A stretch of DNA of 40,470 nt, taken from positions 1-40,470 of the IMG/VR virus record IMGVR_UViG_3300043449_000441. The stretch is one strand, 5' to 3'. Shown piece by piece: positions 19,215-40,470 of the stretch (within the stretch, counting starts at the first letter, position 1; the number at the start of each line of letters is the position of its first letter). The notes under the pieces are model-generated. The model saw only the letters and a program-made list of their open reading frames with translations. It was not told where the DNA came from and made no database searches. The stretch is from a virus. The position numbers were made by a program, and so were the translations under genes.

Positions 19215-19954
19215 TAGAAAAACATTTCACGTGGAACAAGCCGGTCAGCCGCCTTCTCGCGGTCTTCACCAGCAGCTAAATCCCATGCTTCATCGTACAT
19301 TGCCTTCAACGCTTGTGACCTAACCGGATCGGCATTCGGCAACTTAATCGATAACATAAAAGCCAGCCCCGCCACTAAGCAGTTCTGGAATCGAAACGGA
19401 ATATCTGGCACGTTTATACCATTGCCCGCGTCATAAATACGCTTCATGCGCCAATAGTAAAACACGTAATAGGGGTTCAAAGTAGTGCCCTGATCCGGCG
19501 CGGGCCACACATTAATCTGTGGGTTAGCCGAAGTCGCGCCAATTAAATTTGTTGTCTGTCCACTTTGCCGATTAATCCACACTTGAATAGGACGACCTTG
19601 TGCCAACTTGTTCGGAATAGTCGAGTAAGTTGAGACCGAAATACGGGTGATGTTCAAATCAGTCTGGTTAGGACCCTGTCCGGAATCAGTGCGAATAACA
19701 TGTTCCAGAAGATCAACGGTATCATTAGGTAGATCATAGGTAGTTACCCCCTGCGCCAAGTTAATCGAGCCTTGCTCAATAGTCCACAAGTTCACGCCAC
19801 GGTTAGCCCACTCCCCCAGCAGGAAATTCAGGCTGCGTCGCGCCGTACGGAAGTCATAACCCGTACGCATCTCTTGCCCACAACGCTCAAACGCCTCTTC
19901 GAATATCTCGTTGAGGTCTGGGTTAAACGTCGATACTGAGGTAGTGAATGCCAT
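19214..19954 (-). CDS. P22 gp4-like tail accessory / head-tail adaptor protein
   Basis: 246 aa. The start FNPDLNEIFEEAFERCGQEM and the helix YDFRTARRSLNFLLGEWANR, with W-x4-Q-x4-L and TTYDLPNDTVDLLEHVIR, fit the P22 tail accessory factor family. A PYYVFYYWRMKRIYDAGN segment and a C-terminal helix (LKAMYDEAWDLAAGEDRE) complete it. In P22 gp4 seals the portal and nucleates tail assembly; a peptidoglycan-hydrolase activity is known there but I see no basis to claim it here. GAGGG precedes the ATG. Confidence 0.75.
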   Translation of the reverse strand: MAFTTSVSTFNPDLNEIFEEAFERCGQEMRTGYDFRTARRSLNFLLGEWANRGVNLWTIEQGSINLAQGVTTYDLPNDTVDLLEHVIRTDSGQGPNQTDLNITRISVSTYSTIPNKLAQGRPIQVWINRQSGQTTNLIGATSANPQINVWPAPDQGTTLNPYYVFYYWRMKRIYDAGNGINVPDIPFRFQNCLVAGLAFMLSIKLPNADPVRSQALKAMYDEAWDLAAGEDREKAADRLVPREMFF

Positions 19955-32099: not shown

Positions 32100-34576
32100 T
32101 TAGGTTTCCCTTTCTGTGGGGGTTTGGATTTCTGTTGCTGCTGATTCATACGCTGCTGCTGCAAGTTTATTGCTGCGCGGAAGCCTTCAGTTTCTTGCTG
32201 TTTATCTAGCTTTATGCGGTCAGTATGTGTCTTAACCGCCATGTTTGCCCCAGCGATTTCTTTCTGAGCATTAATACGCTCCATTTCAATCGCCATCTGT
32301 TTATCTTTCGCTGCTGCATCAAGCTGGTCTTTGGCGATCTTGCGCTGAACTTCTGCCTGTTTGATCTGCAACTCTTGCATCTGCATCTGTATGATCGGGT
32401 CTTGCATCTGTTGTTGAGCCTGTTGCTGTTGGGCTTCTTGCATGTGCTGTTGTACAAGTTGTTGTGTAGCTTGTGCAGCACGTTGAGATACTTCGACTTC
32501 GATCTCTTTCGGGATCATTACATCGTCGTCTTCTTCGTAGTTTGGTAGCGTGAGACCCATGTTTGCTTCCATCTGCTTGCGATACTCATAGCCCACGTGC
32601 TCATTAATATGAGCCATCATTGCTGCTTGCATCATCTGAACTTGTGGGTTCTGCGATAGGATTTCTTGAATCTTGGGGTCTTGCATCGCGCCCATGTGAA
32701 CAGCAATATGCGCCTGATGGTCCTGATACAAGAACGCTTTGACAGGTTTACCCATCAATATGTTCTGGTTCTCAGTGACGGGGTCGCGCGGGCGAGTGTC
32801 ATCCTCCATCGGAATTAACTTGTTCGCGTTCTTCACGCCCAGTACTTCAACCATCTGACGGTGCAATAGCGGCAAGTCATATAGTTGTGGTGCGCTCTGA
32901 GCCAACTGAAACACCGCCTGATACTGCACAACCTTCTGCGACATCGTCGCCGCATTCGGGTCGCTAACAGGAATTACATCCACCGAGTCATAATCACTCT
33001 GTTTAGCGCGACGTGAACCGTCTACTGGCTCGTAGTCATACTTGTCTGGTGTGAAGTCACGAATGATCTCTTTTAACAGGCGGAACTCTTCGTGCATCGC
33101 GTAGTGAATACGCGCTTGAACCGCTGACATGATCTTCAGGGTTCGCTCTAAAATAGCCAGCGTCGTGCCAACGGGGGATTGGGCAGACATGTCACTGACT
33201 TTTAAGTCAGCCGCGCTGGCAAACCTACGGCCTTCTTCGATGATTTGATTCATCAATCCAGCCAAAACTTGTGATGGTTCCTTGTACGGCAGTGGCAAAA
33301 TGTTGTCACGTATCGCGCCGCTTGGTACATCTACGTCTCTAAATTCACCCGGAGAGATCGGTGTATCGTCGCCTTTGACACGCATACCGCGTGTTTTCAA
33401 TCCCCCCGGCAAGTTTGAAAGCGTACCTGCGTCAACAAGCTGCCTCAATATAGAAGTGCCTGACTTCGCGTATGCCCCGATCAAGTGGATCAAACCAAAG
33501 CAATAAAAGCCAAAACCGGGGATATAGCCGTAATGCACGAAGTGCATACGTTTGTGTTGAAGCTTGTCTTCGGGTCTCCAATTACGGCGAATAGAGAGGA
33601 TTGTTTGTGTACTCTTCTCTATAGTTACAATGTATGGCAGCGCAATGCCTGTCTCTTCACCCTCATCATCTACATCCTCATAACCGGGCAAGTCCAAGTC
33701 AACCTGCATCTCAAGGAGCTTGTAGCGATCATCAGTTGTCGCTCTAAAGCCGAGTTTTTCTGCAATCTTCTTCTCGACTTCTTCAATGGTATTAACTGGG
33801 TCACCCAAGTCAACATCAAGATAAAAGCCCGATACTTGTAGTTTGCGTAGCTCGTTTGGAGTCTTACGCATTACGTGTGTTACACGCTCACACGTTCTTA
33901 ATGACGACGCGCCGTACGGTACAACTACATCTTCAGCAGGAACGTAGATCGATGTCTGCCTACCAAGGGACGGGTCGTAATACACTTTTTTGAACGCATT
34001 ACCAGACAGACCCAAGCCCCACAACATACGCTCATGTTCAGGACGGTATTCAGGCATTTCTTCAGTCAGACGATAGTTCATATCGTCTTTGACGCGTTCA
34101 GCCGCATCTTTCTTTTCAGAAGTCTCTTTACCGATAATTTTCGTCTTAACCGGCCCAGCAGCCGGGAAAGTTTCCATGATCGTCTCAGACTGGAATTTGA
34201 CGAGCGTTTCTGTGAGAAGAGGGTGTGTAACTCCGCAAGCACCCGCCCAAGGTTCTGTTCGCTCATCGAGTTTCATCCCAAGAAGATCAAGACCGTCAAC
34301 GTATGTCTGTACCCAGTCTTTACGGCTAGATACATCCTCCTCGTACGCATCAATCAACTCACTGGCAAGAAGCGACAACTCGTTGTCTTCTATGAACTCA
34401 GCCAAGTTCGCTTCAAAGTCCTCGTCGTCCATCTCACGAGGCTCAATCTCAATCTCCAACCCTTCTGTGCGCAAGCGCACAGCTTCCGGGTCTTCGATCT
34501 CAATTTCCAAGTCAGGCTCCATATTCGCCTGATCCAAGCCCTGCGGGGCGGCATATAAACCTTTTTCGATGCTCAT
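32096..34576 (-). CDS. Portal protein (P22-like)
   Basis: 826 aa. After an acidic N-terminal leader with two LEIEIE blocks comes the portal core: PWAGACGVTHPLLTETLVKF, SGNAFKKVYYDP, YVPAEDVVVPYGASSLRTCE and YGYIPGFGFYCFGLIHLIGA. The C-terminal ~150 residues are Gln/Met-rich helix (QQLVQQHMQEAQQQQAQQQM), like the barrel domain of P22 portal, which extends into the head. P22 portal is 725 aa. Twelve copies form the DNA gate engaged by the terminase encoded upstream and by adaptors downstream. Direct overlap with the next small gene implies coupling. Confidence 0.9.
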   Translation of the reverse strand: MSIEKGLYAAPQGLDQANMEPDLEIEIEDPEAVRLRTEGLEIEIEPREMDDEDFEANLAEFIEDNELSLLASELIDAYEEDVSSRKDWVQTYVDGLDLLGMKLDERTEPWAGACGVTHPLLTETLVKFQSETIMETFPAAGPVKTKIIGKETSEKKDAAERVKDDMNYRLTEEMPEYRPEHERMLWGLGLSGNAFKKVYYDPSLGRQTSIYVPAEDVVVPYGASSLRTCERVTHVMRKTPNELRKLQVSGFYLDVDLGDPVNTIEEVEKKIAEKLGFRATTDDRYKLLEMQVDLDLPGYEDVDDEGEETGIALPYIVTIEKSTQTILSIRRNWRPEDKLQHKRMHFVHYGYIPGFGFYCFGLIHLIGAYAKSGTSILRQLVDAGTLSNLPGGLKTRGMRVKGDDTPISPGEFRDVDVPSGAIRDNILPLPYKEPSQVLAGLMNQIIEEGRRFASAADLKVSDMSAQSPVGTTLAILERTLKIMSAVQARIHYAMHEEFRLLKEIIRDFTPDKYDYEPVDGSRRAKQSDYDSVDVIPVSDPNAATMSQKVVQYQAVFQLAQSAPQLYDLPLLHRQMVEVLGVKNANKLIPMEDDTRPRDPVTENQNILMGKPVKAFLYQDHQAHIAVHMGAMQDPKIQEILSQNPQVQMMQAAMMAHINEHVGYEYRKQMEANMGLTLPNYEEDDDVMIPKEIEVEVSQRAAQATQQLVQQHMQEAQQQQAQQQMQDPIIQMQMQELQIKQAEVQRKIAKDQLDAAAKDKQMAIEMERINAQKEIAGANMAVKTHTDRIKLDKQQETEGFRAAINLQQQRMNQQQQKSKPPQKGKPK

Positions 34577-37677: not shown

Positions 37678-37710
37678 TAAGCTTCCTGTGGCCTATGTGA
37701 CGATTGCGCG

Positions 37711-37738
37711 ACTATAGCAGGAATAATAAGAATGTAAA
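37711..37738 (-). promoter_or_regulatory. Candidate sigma70 late promoter for the terminase/head operon
   Basis: On the minus strand TTTACA (37738-37733) and TATAGT (37716-37711) are separated by 16 bases. It lies 34 bases upstream of the TerS start in a 161-base gap (37678-37838), which otherwise holds AT-rich sequence. It would launch the leftward structural operon. Confidence 0.65.
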
Positions 37739-37838
37739 GGGTTGCTATTGTGGCAATAAAGTTTGGGGGATTTTTTGCGAAATATTTTTTGTATAGGCTA
37801 AAAGTTTCTTAGGGGGTAGGTAGGCTAGATGAGCCGTG

Positions 37839-38360
37839 TCACAACCGAGATGGCTTTACTCTATTAGCTGCTTGCTCTTTGCGGGTAGCCCACCGACAGT
37901 TAGCGGGGTAGTACCCTTTAGTGCCATCGATGCGGTCGATAGTTAACCCTTGGGGGCGCGGCCCCATATCTTCATGAAAGCAAGCAAATCCACTTTTGCC
38001 GCTCTCCCCAAACCGCCAACGGTCGCAGACTTCAATGCCTTTACCGCCATATTTATAGTATCCGGGGTGCAGTTTTGGCTCATAGCACCGCCTAATCATT
38101 GAACGATAAGAGTCTCTTGTGTAGGTTTTCCGTTCAATTTTAGCCTTCTCTTGTCTTGCGGCTATGCTCGACTGGATTACTTTTTTCATGTTTTCTACGC
38201 GCAAACACCCGCAAGAAGCTACGTAGCCACTTTTTAATTGATCCCCACGGGCAACATGTGTGTTTCCGCACTCGCACAAACAATTCCAATGCTTGTTGTA
38301 CTTAGCGTCGCGGTGAGACAGGCTGACTACAGTAAGCCGCTTAAAGACTTTCCCTTCCAT
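37839..38360 (-). CDS. HNH-type homing endonuclease-like protein, 173 aa
   Basis: The N-terminal zinc-binding module has CLCECGN (about 27-33) and SCGCLR (49-54), as in several phage HNH nucleases. The C-terminal nuclease motif is TIDRIDGTKGYYPANCRWAT (140-159) followed by RKEQAANR, an HNH variant in which the first His is read as Asp in the DRID core. These nucleases cut DNA in a metal-dependent way and often lie next to terminase genes, sometimes aiding packaging cuts or homing. It is on the same strand as terS with its own upstream region. Low similarity in base composition to neighbours was not measured. Confidence 0.8.
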   Translation of the reverse strand: MEGKVFKRLTVVSLSHRDAKYNKHWNCLCECGNTHVARGDQLKSGYVASCGCLRVENMKKVIQSSIAARQEKAKIERKTYTRDSYRSMIRRCYEPKLHPGYYKYGGKGIEVCDRWRFGESGKSGFACFHEDMGPRPQGLTIDRIDGTKGYYPANCRWATRKEQAANRVKPSRL

Positions 38361-38365
38361 GATAC

Positions 38366-38399
38366 CCCCCTAAACTAACGTAAATTTAGGGGGATTATA
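38366..38399 (-). promoter_or_regulatory. Inverted repeat and TATAAT at the HNH start
   Basis: CCCCCTAAA (38366-38374) and TTTAGGGGG (38385-38393) form a nine-base inverted repeat abutting a TATAAT box (minus, 38399-38394). A convincing -35 is missing. The left arm, read as AGGGGGG on the minus strand, is also the likely ribosome site five bases before the ATG. The repeat could be an operator or a start-site hairpin controlling translation. Confidence 0.5.
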
Positions 38400-38477
38400 G
38401 CTTGATTTTGAAAAATAGTGGGGTCGTTTGTGCGTTTCTTAGTGTATAGAGGCGCGGGACTCCAACGCAGGGATTTA

Positions 38478-38504
38478 GGGGGGTGGGGGCGTGGGGGGCT
38501 AGGG
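38478..38504 (+). promoter_or_regulatory. G-quadruplex motif upstream of the first rightward promoter
   Basis: Four G-runs of six, five, six and three bases (38478-38483, 38485-38489, 38493-38498, 38502-38504) are separated by one to three bases, a strict G3+N1-7 pattern. It ends about ten bases before the -35 box at 38514. The preceding TTTAGGGGGG shares nine bases with the HNH operator-like repeat. Formation in vivo is unproven. Confidence 0.7.
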
Positions 38505-38513
38505 CGGATTTAC

Positions 38514-38541
38514 TTGACATACCTATGGGATATGATAATAT
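38514..38541 (+). promoter_or_regulatory. Near-consensus sigma70 promoter for the 100-aa gene
   Basis: TTGACA (38514-38519), 16-base spacer, TAATAT (38536-38541). The ATG is at 38596, giving a leader of about 45-50 bases that ends in AAAGGGAACATC. Promoter strength is likely high given the perfect -35. Confidence 0.85.
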
Positions 38542-38595
38542 TAGCTCATGTCGGATAGATACCGACCGATCATCAACCAACAGAAAGGGAACATC

Positions 38596-38898
38596 ATGAT
38601 TGATCATCTGTATATCGGCGCAGTGCCCGCCGAAGAAGATTGTGCACAAGTAGGCGCAGCAGACTATGCAACACGCGCCAGAGCAGAGTGCAGACGGTTC
38701 ATTGCACAAATACTGCGCCACTATCCAGAGCCAGAGAATGGATGGCTGCAAGTTAAGTCTTGCCCGCATGACTTCGGTACGTACTATGAAGTAATCGCTT
38801 GTTATGACACAAACGATGACAAATCAACACGCTGGGCGTTTGATGTAGAGTGGGATGAGAAGGATGTCCTGAAGGTTTGGGACGATCACTTTAAGTAA
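38596..38898 (+). CDS. Rightward small early-type gene, 100 aa
   Basis: ATG 38596 (AAAGGG upstream) is chosen over 38548, which precedes the ribosome site. The product, MIDHLYIGAVPAEEDCAQVG followed by ADYATRARAECRRFIAQIL, has an N-terminal short strand, a Cys/Arg helix and an acidic beta C-terminus (WAFDVEWDEKDVLKVWDDH). No family recognised. It is transcribed away from the HNH and late genes from its own strong promoter, and ended by a classic terminator, so it is probably an early, independently regulated protein such as a host-takeover factor. Confidence 0.75.
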   Translation: MIDHLYIGAVPAEEDCAQVGAADYATRARAECRRFIAQILRHYPEPENGWLQVKSCPHDFGTYYEVIACYDTNDDKSTRWAFDVEWDEKDVLKVWDDHFK

Positions 38899-38902
38899 CA
38901 CC

Positions 38903-38926
38903 AAGCCCGCTTCGGCGGGCTTTTTT
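38903..38926 (+). terminator. Intrinsic terminator of the 100-aa gene
   Basis: AAGCCCGC and GCGGGCTT pair around a TTCG tetraloop, followed by six T (38921-38926). It lies just after the stop codon. Confidence 0.93.
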
Positions 38927-38936
38927 ACGTCCTGTG

Positions 38937-39032
38937 GATTTGATACCAGTTATTAAAGAGCGCGAGCGTCACCCATCGCGCGGCGGCGCGGGCGGCTTAT
39001 TTAGTGCCCTATGCGCGAATAGGGCGCTATTT
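38937..39032 (+). repeat. Intergenic cassette, copy 1: 25-base core plus hairpin
   Basis: The core 38945-38969 (ACCAGTTATTAAAGAGCGCG ending GCGT) matches copy 2 at 39830-39854 in 23 of 25 bases. A palindrome (TTTAGTGCCCTA at 39000-39011 with TAGGGCGCTA at 39020-39029) has an eight-base loop and ends next to the -35 box of the following promoter. Between lies a GC-rich stretch. Confidence 0.75.
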
Positions 39033-39034
39033 GC

Positions 39035-39062
39035 TTGACATATAGACTGTATCAGGTAGAAT
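39035..39062 (+). promoter_or_regulatory. Sigma70 promoter for the 217-aa gene
   Basis: TTGACA (39035-39040), 16-base spacer, TAGAAT (39057-39062). Both this and the promoter at 38514 begin CTTGACATA. Downstream, TCGGA-TTGTT-TCCGA followed by six T (39088-39108) may be a weak attenuator in the leader before the ATG at 39126. Confidence 0.8.
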
Positions 39063-39125
39063 TCACTTATCGGATGAACAGTCTATTTCGGATTGTTTCC
39101 GATTTTTTAAGAAAGGTTAGTCATC

Positions 39126-39779
39126 ATGGCTACCAAAAAACTTCCAGTTGTACAGGCTATTGAATCCGCTTTTGAGTTTGTTTCTCTCAAAGATGCGGCC
39201 TATAAACAAGCCGCTGGCTTTGAAACAAACAACGACACTCTTAATAGTGTTGCGCATTATGTTCGCATGACTAGTCCGAATTACCCGCATGAGAAGGATG
39301 AAGTCATCGACACAATGCTGGCTGAGGGTTATCTGTTAAAACTCTCAGAAACGAAACGGGGCGCGCCCCGTGAATTCGGTTACGTTGACGGGAATTATGT
39401 TGACGTTTCTTTGCTGGCATCAAAACCGAAGCATTGCGAAGTACTTACCATTGCTTACGCTACTGGTCTGAGTAACTATGATTATCGCAAATTAGATAAT
39501 CCAGACAAAAAAGCAGTAGTGCAGGAAATCCGCGAAATGGCGTCAACGTATGTTTCTCAGCGTAAAGCCGCTTTGCACAAAAAACTGGATGAGATCGACA
39601 ATCCAGAGAAGGCTAAGAAACGCTCTGATAACAAAACCTTCCGCAAACATTGGGAAGACGTTTTTGAGAATGGTGAAAAGAAAGTGAAAATCGCCGTGAA
39701 GCTTGGCGATCCGGATGCAAACCCCGCGAAGTATAACGCAGCGGTCGCGGCCTTCTGGCAAGTGATCAACGCTAAGTAA
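39126..39779 (+). CDS. Rightward early-type protein, 217 aa
   Basis: ATG 39126 preceded by AAAGG. The product is a soluble, Lys/Asp-rich protein: KKLPVVQAIESAFEFVSLKD at the start, YVDGNYVDVSLLASKPKHCE in the middle, a coiled segment with NPEKAKKRSDNKTFRKHWED, and ENGEKKVKIAVKLGDPDANP near the end, finishing AVAAFWQVINAK. No nuclease, helicase or DNA-binding signature recognised. It is expressed from its own promoter and terminator, like its left neighbour. Early or moron-like role by context only. Confidence 0.75.
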   Translation: MATKKLPVVQAIESAFEFVSLKDAAYKQAAGFETNNDTLNSVAHYVRMTSPNYPHEKDEVIDTMLAEGYLLKLSETKRGAPREFGYVDGNYVDVSLLASKPKHCEVLTIAYATGLSNYDYRKLDNPDKKAVVQEIREMASTYVSQRKAALHKKLDEIDNPEKAKKRSDNKTFRKHWEDVFENGEKKVKIAVKLGDPDANPAKYNAAVAAFWQVINAK

Positions 39780-39785
39780 GACTCA

Positions 39786-39812
39786 GCCCCGCCGAAAGGC
39801 GGGGCTTTTTTT
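39786..39812 (+). terminator. Intrinsic terminator of the 217-aa gene
   Basis: GCCCCGCC pairs with GGCGGGGC around a GAAA tetraloop, followed by seven T (39806-39812). A textbook GNRA-looped terminator. Confidence 0.95.
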
Positions 39813-39819
39813 GCCCCTT

Positions 39820-39946
39820 GATTTTCGAAACCAGTTATTTAAGAGCGCGCGCGTGAGTTAAGCAAACGGTAGATGACACCCCGTCAGGGGTGGGTCGCAG
39901 GACGCTTCGCTATTTAGTGACCTACAACACAATAGGACGCTAAATA
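39820..39946 (+). repeat. Intergenic cassette, copy 2: 25-base core plus hairpin
   Basis: Core 39830-39854 matches copy 1 (23/25). The palindrome TATTTAGTGACCTA (39911-39924) with TAGGACGCTAAATA (39933-39946) has an eight-base loop, 12 Watson-Crick pairs, one G-T pair and one mismatch. Unlike copy 1, it sits inside the large inverted-arm element and no TTGACA follows. Confidence 0.75.
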
Positions 39947-39973
39947 AGGTTCTATCATTTACCGTTTGCTTAA
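39858..39973 (+). other. Structured element with 19-base terminal inverted arms and two internal hairpins
   Basis: TTAAGCAAACGGTA plus GATGA (39858-39876) is complementary to 39955-39973 (perfect over the first 14 bases, one mismatch in 19). Inside are hairpin CACCCC-GTCA-GGGGTG (39877-39892) starting directly at the arm, and the cassette hairpin (39911-39946). As RNA or cruciform DNA this forms a three-way junction. No ORF spans it in a convincing way. It could be a structured ncRNA, an origin structure, an attachment/recombination site or a MITE-like insertion. Confidence 0.65.
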
Positions 39974-39994
39974 ATGATGCGCGGCTCGGTTTTT

Positions 39995-40367
39995 TGTTCC
40001 GGTAGTTCCGTTACTGTTCTGCTAACGGAACACGTTTTCCTGTTTAAAATCAACGACTTACACGCTTGTTCCGATGTTCCGGCTTTTTTAGAGGGGTACG
40101 GGCAAATCTCGTGTAAATGCAGATCGAACGTCCTTTGCGGCAAGTGCGTTTTCACTCAGATTTTCCATACCCTCTTTTTTCACCGGAACAGAACAACCTA
40201 CTATATATAGTATATTTATATAATTATTTTTTAAAAAAACGAGGTTTTATGCGGCATCTCAGCCCTTTCTTACTGTTCTGGCAACACCAAAATCACCGGA
40301 ACAAGCCACGAGAGAATGCGGGTTTTCAGCCATTTTTTGTTCCGATTACCCATCCAACACCGGAACA
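39995..40367 (+). repeat. Cluster of TGTTCCG/CGGAACA repeats (iteron- or operator-like)
   Basis: Exact copies at 39995, 40067, 40075 and 40338 on plus, and 40026, 40184, 40297 and 40361 as CGGAACA, many extended to TGTTCCGG, with a partial at 40005 and near matches TGTTCTG at 40015 and 40274. Eight 7-mer hits in about 370 bases versus well under one expected. The repeats fall in different reading frames, so coding does not explain them. Consistent with an initiator-binding array. Confidence 0.8.
40201..40240. other. AT-rich tract (candidate DNA unwinding element)
   Basis: 37 of 40 bases are A or T, with runs such as TATATATAG and TTTTTTAAAAAAA. It lies within the TGTTCCG repeat cluster, an arrangement common to replication origins. 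It also contains possible -10-like sequence, so a promoter role is not excluded. Confidence 0.65.
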
Positions 40368-40425
40368 ACTATCGTATTTAAACCCCTTGTACCATATGTC
40401 AATTTATGGTATACTTATAGAGTAG
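40249..40425 (+). CDS. Possible small ORF inside the control region, 58 aa
   Basis: ATG 40249 has GAGG five bases upstream (AACGAGGTTTT). The peptide starts MRHLSPFLLFWQHQNHRNKP and ends LNPLYHMSIYGILIE; it has no family match I recognise. It crosses three repeats and the edge promoter, so it may be fortuitous. Low confidence. Confidence 0.25.
   Translation: MRHLSPFLLFWQHQNHRNKPRENAGFQPFFVPITHPTPEQLSYLNPLYHMSIYGILIE
40387..40415 (+). promoter_or_regulatory. Rightward promoter with operator-like inverted repeat at window edge
   Basis: TTGTAC (40387-40392), 17-base spacer, TATACT (40410-40415). The spacer and flanks hold the perfect inverted repeat TACCATA (40390-40396) and TATGGTA (40405-40411), centred where a repressor would block RNA polymerase. 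The leader to the edge (ATCAACCTACACAG) resembles the 38.58 kb leader ATCAACCAACAGAAAGGG, so a gene start probably lies just beyond 40470. Confidence 0.75.
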
Positions 40426-40470
40426 TAGAGCAGTTCAGCAACACGCGCAGTTAATTATCAACCTACACAG

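Follow-up and report, generated by a model that had tools for sequence, protein, structure and literature searches.

A SaPI/PICI-like candidate replication origin in a phage family, with a primase-DUF927 helicase encoded in trans as its likely initiator

Introduction

The alpha protein of the satellite phage P4 combines primase, helicase and origin recognition in one polypeptide, and the ori/crr repeats of this phage are arranged in separate sets with an A/T-rich region. PICI origins always have an A/T-rich region with a set of iterons on either side (PMC6092414). Iterons are recognised by the SaPI Rep helicases through their C-terminal domain, and Cch of SCCmec is a relative of the self-loading initiator SaPIbov1 Rep (PMC7581432). 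The origins of environmental phages have rarely been located.

The stretch of DNA analysed here (the window, 40,470 bases) is a linear phage fragment from IMG/VR without a terminal repeat. Close to its right end lies an array of a 7-bp word (Table 1) which, judged from sequence comparison, is very probably a phage replication origin of the SaPI/PICI-like type, served by a trans-encoded, self-loading initiator in which a primase is joined to a DUF927 helicase. A probable origin is placed here along with the protein likely to initiate at it, and many genomes of the family are available.

Results

Genomic context of the array

Terminase, portal and structural genes run leftward in the window. Rightward from ~38.5 kb follow two small genes, p101 and p217, then the array, a promoter-like site and the contig end. 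TerL is ~47-53% identical to that of HTVC023P, HTVC027P and DSL-LC04, and, to judge from the 57-62 kb genomes of these phages, early genes spanning ~20 kb probably continue beyond the right end of the window. The array could not be found in HTVC023P, DSL-LC04 and the first 50 kb of HTVC027P. No DNA similarity to known phages was found for the array region, and an Rfam scan of positions 37700-40470 gave no match.

The p217 protein belongs to an orphan family which is fast-evolving and often tandem-duplicated. Its AlphaFold model is confident (pLDDT 87) and has no structural match in the PDB or BFVD. Between the p217 terminator and the array, an inverted repeat TTAAGCAAACGGTARATGA / TCATTTACCGTTTGCTTAAATGA is present at 39858-39876 and 39955-39977; it is kept in three relatives (L002, L004 and L003, with three copies in L003) and has no Rfam match. 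After each rightward terminator of the window (38945-38953 and 39830-39838) ACCAGTTAT is followed by a GCGCG-rich stretch, and this element is also seen in relatives and near the arrays of G034, G041 and G052.

Table 1. Features of the array region and its left neighbour, in window coordinates
Feature	Position	Strand	Description
p217 gene	39126-39779	+	Left neighbour of the array; family without known fold
Cluster A	39995-40032	both	TGTTCCG (+) 39995-40001, TGTTCTG (+) 40015-40021, CGGAACA (-) 40026-40032
IHF-consensus-like element	40047-40061	+	AAATCAACGACTTAC; tighter form ATCAANNACTTA at 40049-40060, single copy in the window
Pair B	40067-40081	+	TGTTCCGATGTTCCG; tandem TGTTCCG at 40067 and 40075, 8-bp period
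Inner inverted repeat, left arm	40090-40099	+	AGAGGGGTAC; just inside pair B
Inner inverted repeat, right arm	40167-40175	+	ATACCCTCT; just inside pair C
Pair C	40184-40195	-	CGGAACA at 40184 and CAGAACA (TGTTCTG variant) at 40189, 5-bp period in the window; inverted relative to B
A/T tract, candidate DNA-unwinding element	40200-40239		38 of 40 positions A/T
Cluster D	40274-40367	both	TGTTCTG (+) 40274, CGGAACA (-) 40297, TGTTCCG (+) 40338, CGGAACA (-) 40361
Promoter-like site	40387-40415	+	TTGTAC-17-TATACT; the rightward early operon begins here, with its genes beyond 40470

An array of TGTTCCG sites around an A/T tract

The word TGTTCCG is present nine times in the window and, as the initial annotation had counted, eight of these copies fall on both strands within 39995-40367 (373 bp). 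The word is indeed rare elsewhere in the window, where the single further copy (26920) lies inside a long ORF. Shuffled windows give 4.5 copies per whole window and ~0.04 per 373 bp, and eight copies in such a short span are therefore far beyond chance. Three TGTTCTG variants are also part of the array. The sites had been described as iteron-like, which is right in so far as they form a real repeat array; the copies are not evenly spaced but gathered in clusters and two oppositely oriented tandem pairs. The 40-base A/T tract noted earlier is the most A/T-rich 40-mer of the whole window. The array region (~375 bases) looks non-coding, as had been assumed, and an ORF of 102 aa (40117-40425) has no support. 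A hairpin or RNA reading of the interval from B to C was set aside, because inverted protein sites pair as well. Cumulative GC skew, which had been put forward as a test of the origin, turned out to be uninformative, since its minimum is confounded with gene strand: it tracks the gene-strand switch and lies ~4 kb from the array in both G002 and G004.

Downstream of the array, the promoter-like site is kept in four relatives (L002, L003, L004 and L099). The initial annotation had considered this promoter repressible; the palindrome ACCATA...TATGGT present at this site is broken in L002, L003 and L004, and only the promoter part of the proposal is retained. The array is always found upstream of the early operon, its last sites ~20-35 bp from the -35 box, a position which would suit an operator array for a phage transcription regulator at the rightward early promoter, with no role in replication. 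However, the sites reach ~400 bp upstream and include the A/T tract and an IHF-like element, which argues against an operator, as do the results on p217 and on unrelated phages described below.

The first early gene to the right of the promoter in L002, L003 and L004 (for example L004:5917-6174) encodes a small acidic protein with the conserved end SIYSYTxWFYDGDxxAFSxI. Another early protein, encoded at L147:12504-12965 (G001 32504-32965), carries an RNA polymerase alpha-CTD domain (Pfam PF03118, E 1e-10) and is possibly a phage transcription adaptor.

Conserved layout and concerted change of the word in relatives

In IMG/VR relatives the array occupies the same position, with the terminase block on one side and the early operon (e300, AAA ATPase, VWA protein) on the other. 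Placed in one orientation, ~35 loci share a common plan, namely cluster A, pair B (>>), ~120 bp, pair C (<<), the A/T tract, cluster D and the promoter. Cluster A contains 2-4 sites at the same place, and pair B always points rightward with an 8-bp period. C is an inverted copy of B, and the two pairs enclose a further inverted repeat; the period of C is 8 bp in most relatives as compared to 5 bp in the window. With few exceptions, relatives have the A/T tract next to C. G005 deviates from this plan, with its A/T tract before B and no D seen. Inside the arrays of L003 (11238-11630, minus strand) and L004 (5471-5839, minus strand) there is a minus-strand ORF of 120-130 aa, flanked on both sides by copies of the word; it is absent from the window and L002 and has no Pfam match.

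Most loci use a single word throughout, and the word differs by genome, with all clusters changed in concert. TGTTCCG is found in the window, L002, L024, L034 and G005, TGTTCTG in L069 and L083, TGTTCTA in L087, L094, L097 and G001, TGTTCCA in G007 and L099, and AATTCCA in L139, while the arrays of L003, L004 and L080 are TGTTCYR mixtures. Further words came from a word-blind detector of the layout alone (a >> tandem followed by a << tandem 95-180 bp apart, with at least 6 copies): TGTGTCA (G042, G044), TTGTACGC (G034), AGTTCC (G041) and ATTCCA (G053, G055, G058). This detector gave no match in 40 shuffled genomes (2.4 Mb in total) and overlooks some true arrays, namely those of G002 and G004 and, in its strict form, that of the window.

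The IHF-like element (Table 1), both forms of which we take to fit the IHF consensus WATCAANNNNTTR, is part of this layout. Of 56 array regions, 38 contain ATCAANNACTTA (0.1 expected from shuffles) and 48 the relaxed form [AT]CAANNACTTA (1.6 expected), counts which are not independent since some of the regions are close relatives. ATCAANNACTTA is usually present in one copy per genome and persists where the word differs. DnaA boxes occur in 8 of the 56 regions (2.0 expected, maximum 7), which is overall not convincing. The array regions of G055 and G058 carry the DnaA box TTATCCACA, and a DnaA-box-like TTATCCACAGGTTATACACG lies beside the G055 array at ~19,750-19,790 (in L292).

A primase-DUF927 helicase as candidate initiator

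The initial annotation had expected the initiator nearby, to the right of position 40470. In relatives the candidate is encoded instead at the distal end of the early region, ~15-23 kb from the array in most genomes that have both. This protein of ~950 aa, with a primase-like N terminus and a DUF927 helicase, is present in all eight long relatives (G001-G008), which had been chosen through TerL or the array word. We take its N terminus, by motif, to be archaeo-eukaryotic primase-like, and DUF927 was found in 59 of 59 homologues. A profile of these 59 homologues matched SCCmec Cch (5dgk, E 1.2e-22) and SaPI Rep (8tch, E 3.9e-18) and no other PDB sequence at E up to 0.1. The model of the C-terminal half (pLDDT 85) has the same two structures as its top matches, followed by MCM helicases. 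The last ~95 residues are winged-helix-like; the Pfam HTH_56 profile (the HTH of Cch) matches 11 of the 59 homologues weakly, with a best E of 0.0006, and in the member shown the match does not reach the curated cut-off. The window's own initiator, which would lie beyond the fragment, is expected to be of the same primase-DUF927 type.

Covariation of the word with the C-terminal domain

Word distances between genomes were compared with protein distances, with a control distance partialled out; the word distances are approximate, because words were picked by eye from enriched k-mers. Among the 24 genomes compared, the word correlates with a single segment of the primase-helicase, residues 850-945 (partial r 0.31-0.33, p about 0.005; r 0.33 and p 0.004 in the comparison by segment), all other segments having p > 0.1. 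The correlation persists once near-duplicates are removed (r 0.34, p 0.017). In sliding windows over the protein the last window is the best, with an uncorrected p of 0.03, so that this set alone is modest evidence. In the 15 genomes where TerS and TerL are available the domain gives r 0.60 (p 0.0003), with TerL, TerS and the remainder of the protein as controls.

These 15 genomes also bear on a packaging function. The IHF site of lambda cosB offers a parallel, and the terminase genes lie ~2.3 kb to the left of the array, so that the sites could be imagined as small terminase sites with an IHF site in a cosB- or pac-like element. Yet neither TerS nor TerL correlates with the word when the primase is taken into account (partial r for TerS -0.29, and -0.50 for terS given CTD2), the L002 and L003 contigs continue across the array without a contig end there, and an A/T tract in an early-promoter context would be unusual for cosB. 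We regard a packaging site as very improbable.

Covariation with a phage protein domain also counts against sites for a host-encoded protein such as a LexA-type repressor, with a word that varies since hosts differ. GTTC/GAAC cores, as in the window's word, resemble some LexA boxes. The spacings, however, are unlike direct or inverted LexA boxes, and the words TGTGTCA and TTGTACGC lack the core in the same layout. Sites of this kind are hardly to be expected here.

As the most obvious local candidate for an operator-binding regulator, p217 was compared in the same way. Over 35 loci, distances for p217 and for the word are uncorrelated (partial r -0.01, p 0.57). The protein was also not detected in five array-bearing genomes (G005, G034, G041, G042 and G044) and has an orphan fold, and was therefore rejected as the reader of the array.

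TGTTCCG arrays in unrelated phages

All IMG/VR viral contigs were searched for the 15-mer TGTTCCGATGTTCCG. Matches were mostly chance, and the search gave relatives plus three unrelated contigs with at least 5 sites. In L006 (4785-5009) 10 sites follow Toprim-primase and DUF5906 genes, in L051 (11505-11748) 5 sites lie at the 3' end of the gene for a P4-family primase (TIGR01613), and in L052 (528-617) 6 sites lie over the end of a DUF3631 gene. These three arrays are candidate origins of their own phages. No recognised primase lies beside the sites of two further contigs, L011 and L054 (four sites each).

TGTTCCG arrays of unrelated phages adjoining primase-helicase genes would not be expected of operators, and we consider an operator array without a replication role unlikely. 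The original preference for an origin is upheld: the layout, the concerted turnover of the word, the A/T tract, the IHF-like element, the Cch/SaPI-Rep-type initiator, the covariation of its C terminus and the unrelated arrays beside primase-helicase genes all favour an origin over an operator.

Discussion

A model for initiation

In the replication origin that we favour, the copies of the 7-bp word would be iterons, putative sites for a phage-encoded self-loading initiator in which an archaeo-eukaryotic-type primase is fused to a DUF927 helicase of the Cch / SaPIbov1-Rep / MCM-like kind, with a C-terminal winged-helix-like domain. From the arrangement of the sites, the inverted pairs B and C, ~120 bp apart, may seat two helicase rings. 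A protein, presumably of the IHF type, would bend the DNA, and the A/T tract next to C would melt. After melting, the helicase would be loaded and the fused primase would start synthesis. It is possible that the adjacent early promoter helps in this process or is controlled by the same complex. Across the phage family, the word and the domain that would read it appear to have changed together.

We lean, with some reserve, towards a broader view of the family. A widespread group of uncultivated phages would replicate from an origin of the SaPI/PICI-like kind, with an AEP primase-DUF927 helicase as its trans-acting reader. At least seven words would have arisen at constant architecture in step with the winged-helix domain, giving orthogonal pairs that could bar co-infecting relatives from cross-replication. 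The many matched pairs of word and domain make initiator-origin specificity directly testable, and they could provide orthogonal replication origins for laboratory use.

Comparison with known systems

Iteron plasmid origins of the RepA/RepE type resemble this locus in having iterons, an A/T-rich unwinding element and an IHF-like site. Here, in contrast, the candidate initiator is itself a helicase-primase and the iterons are on both strands; no plasmid Rep-type initiator (Rep_3/RepA) was found among ~20 early proteins of G001 (compared with PHROGs and some also with Pfam), and the locus was not assigned to this class.

With P4 alpha and ori/crr the locus has in common a single polypeptide for primase, helicase and recognition (the recognition being predicted here), separate repeat sets and an A/T-rich region. 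P4 alpha is a member of the P4/D5 family (TIGR01613); the helicase here is DUF927, and there is a single compact locus. Membership of the P4 family (TIGR01613/D5_N) was not assigned, TIGR01613 matches being confined to L051, an unrelated phage with an array.

SCCmec Cch (5dgk), with its DUF927 helicase and C-terminal HTH, is the nearest solved structure by both profile and fold; in contrast to Cch, the helicase here is fused to a primase and encoded in a phage replication module.

The SaPI/PICI origins with SaPIbov1 Rep or Pri-Rep (PMC6092414, PMC7581432) likewise have two sets of short iterons flanking an A/T-rich region, a helicase of the DUF927 family (SaPIbov1 Rep, 8tch) whose C-terminal domain binds DNA, as is predicted here, and a primase as partner or fusion. 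They differ in that their origin lies directly 3' of the initiator gene, which is ~20 kb away in the present family. In comparison to the SaPI/PICI elements, the phages of the present family carry capsid, terminase and polA genes of their own, and their origin shows inverted 8-bp tandem pairs, a conserved IHF-like element and an AEP primase fused to the helicase. The presence of such a close PICI analogue, with a homologous helicase, in phages bearing capsid and terminase genes bears on the source of the PICI replicon.
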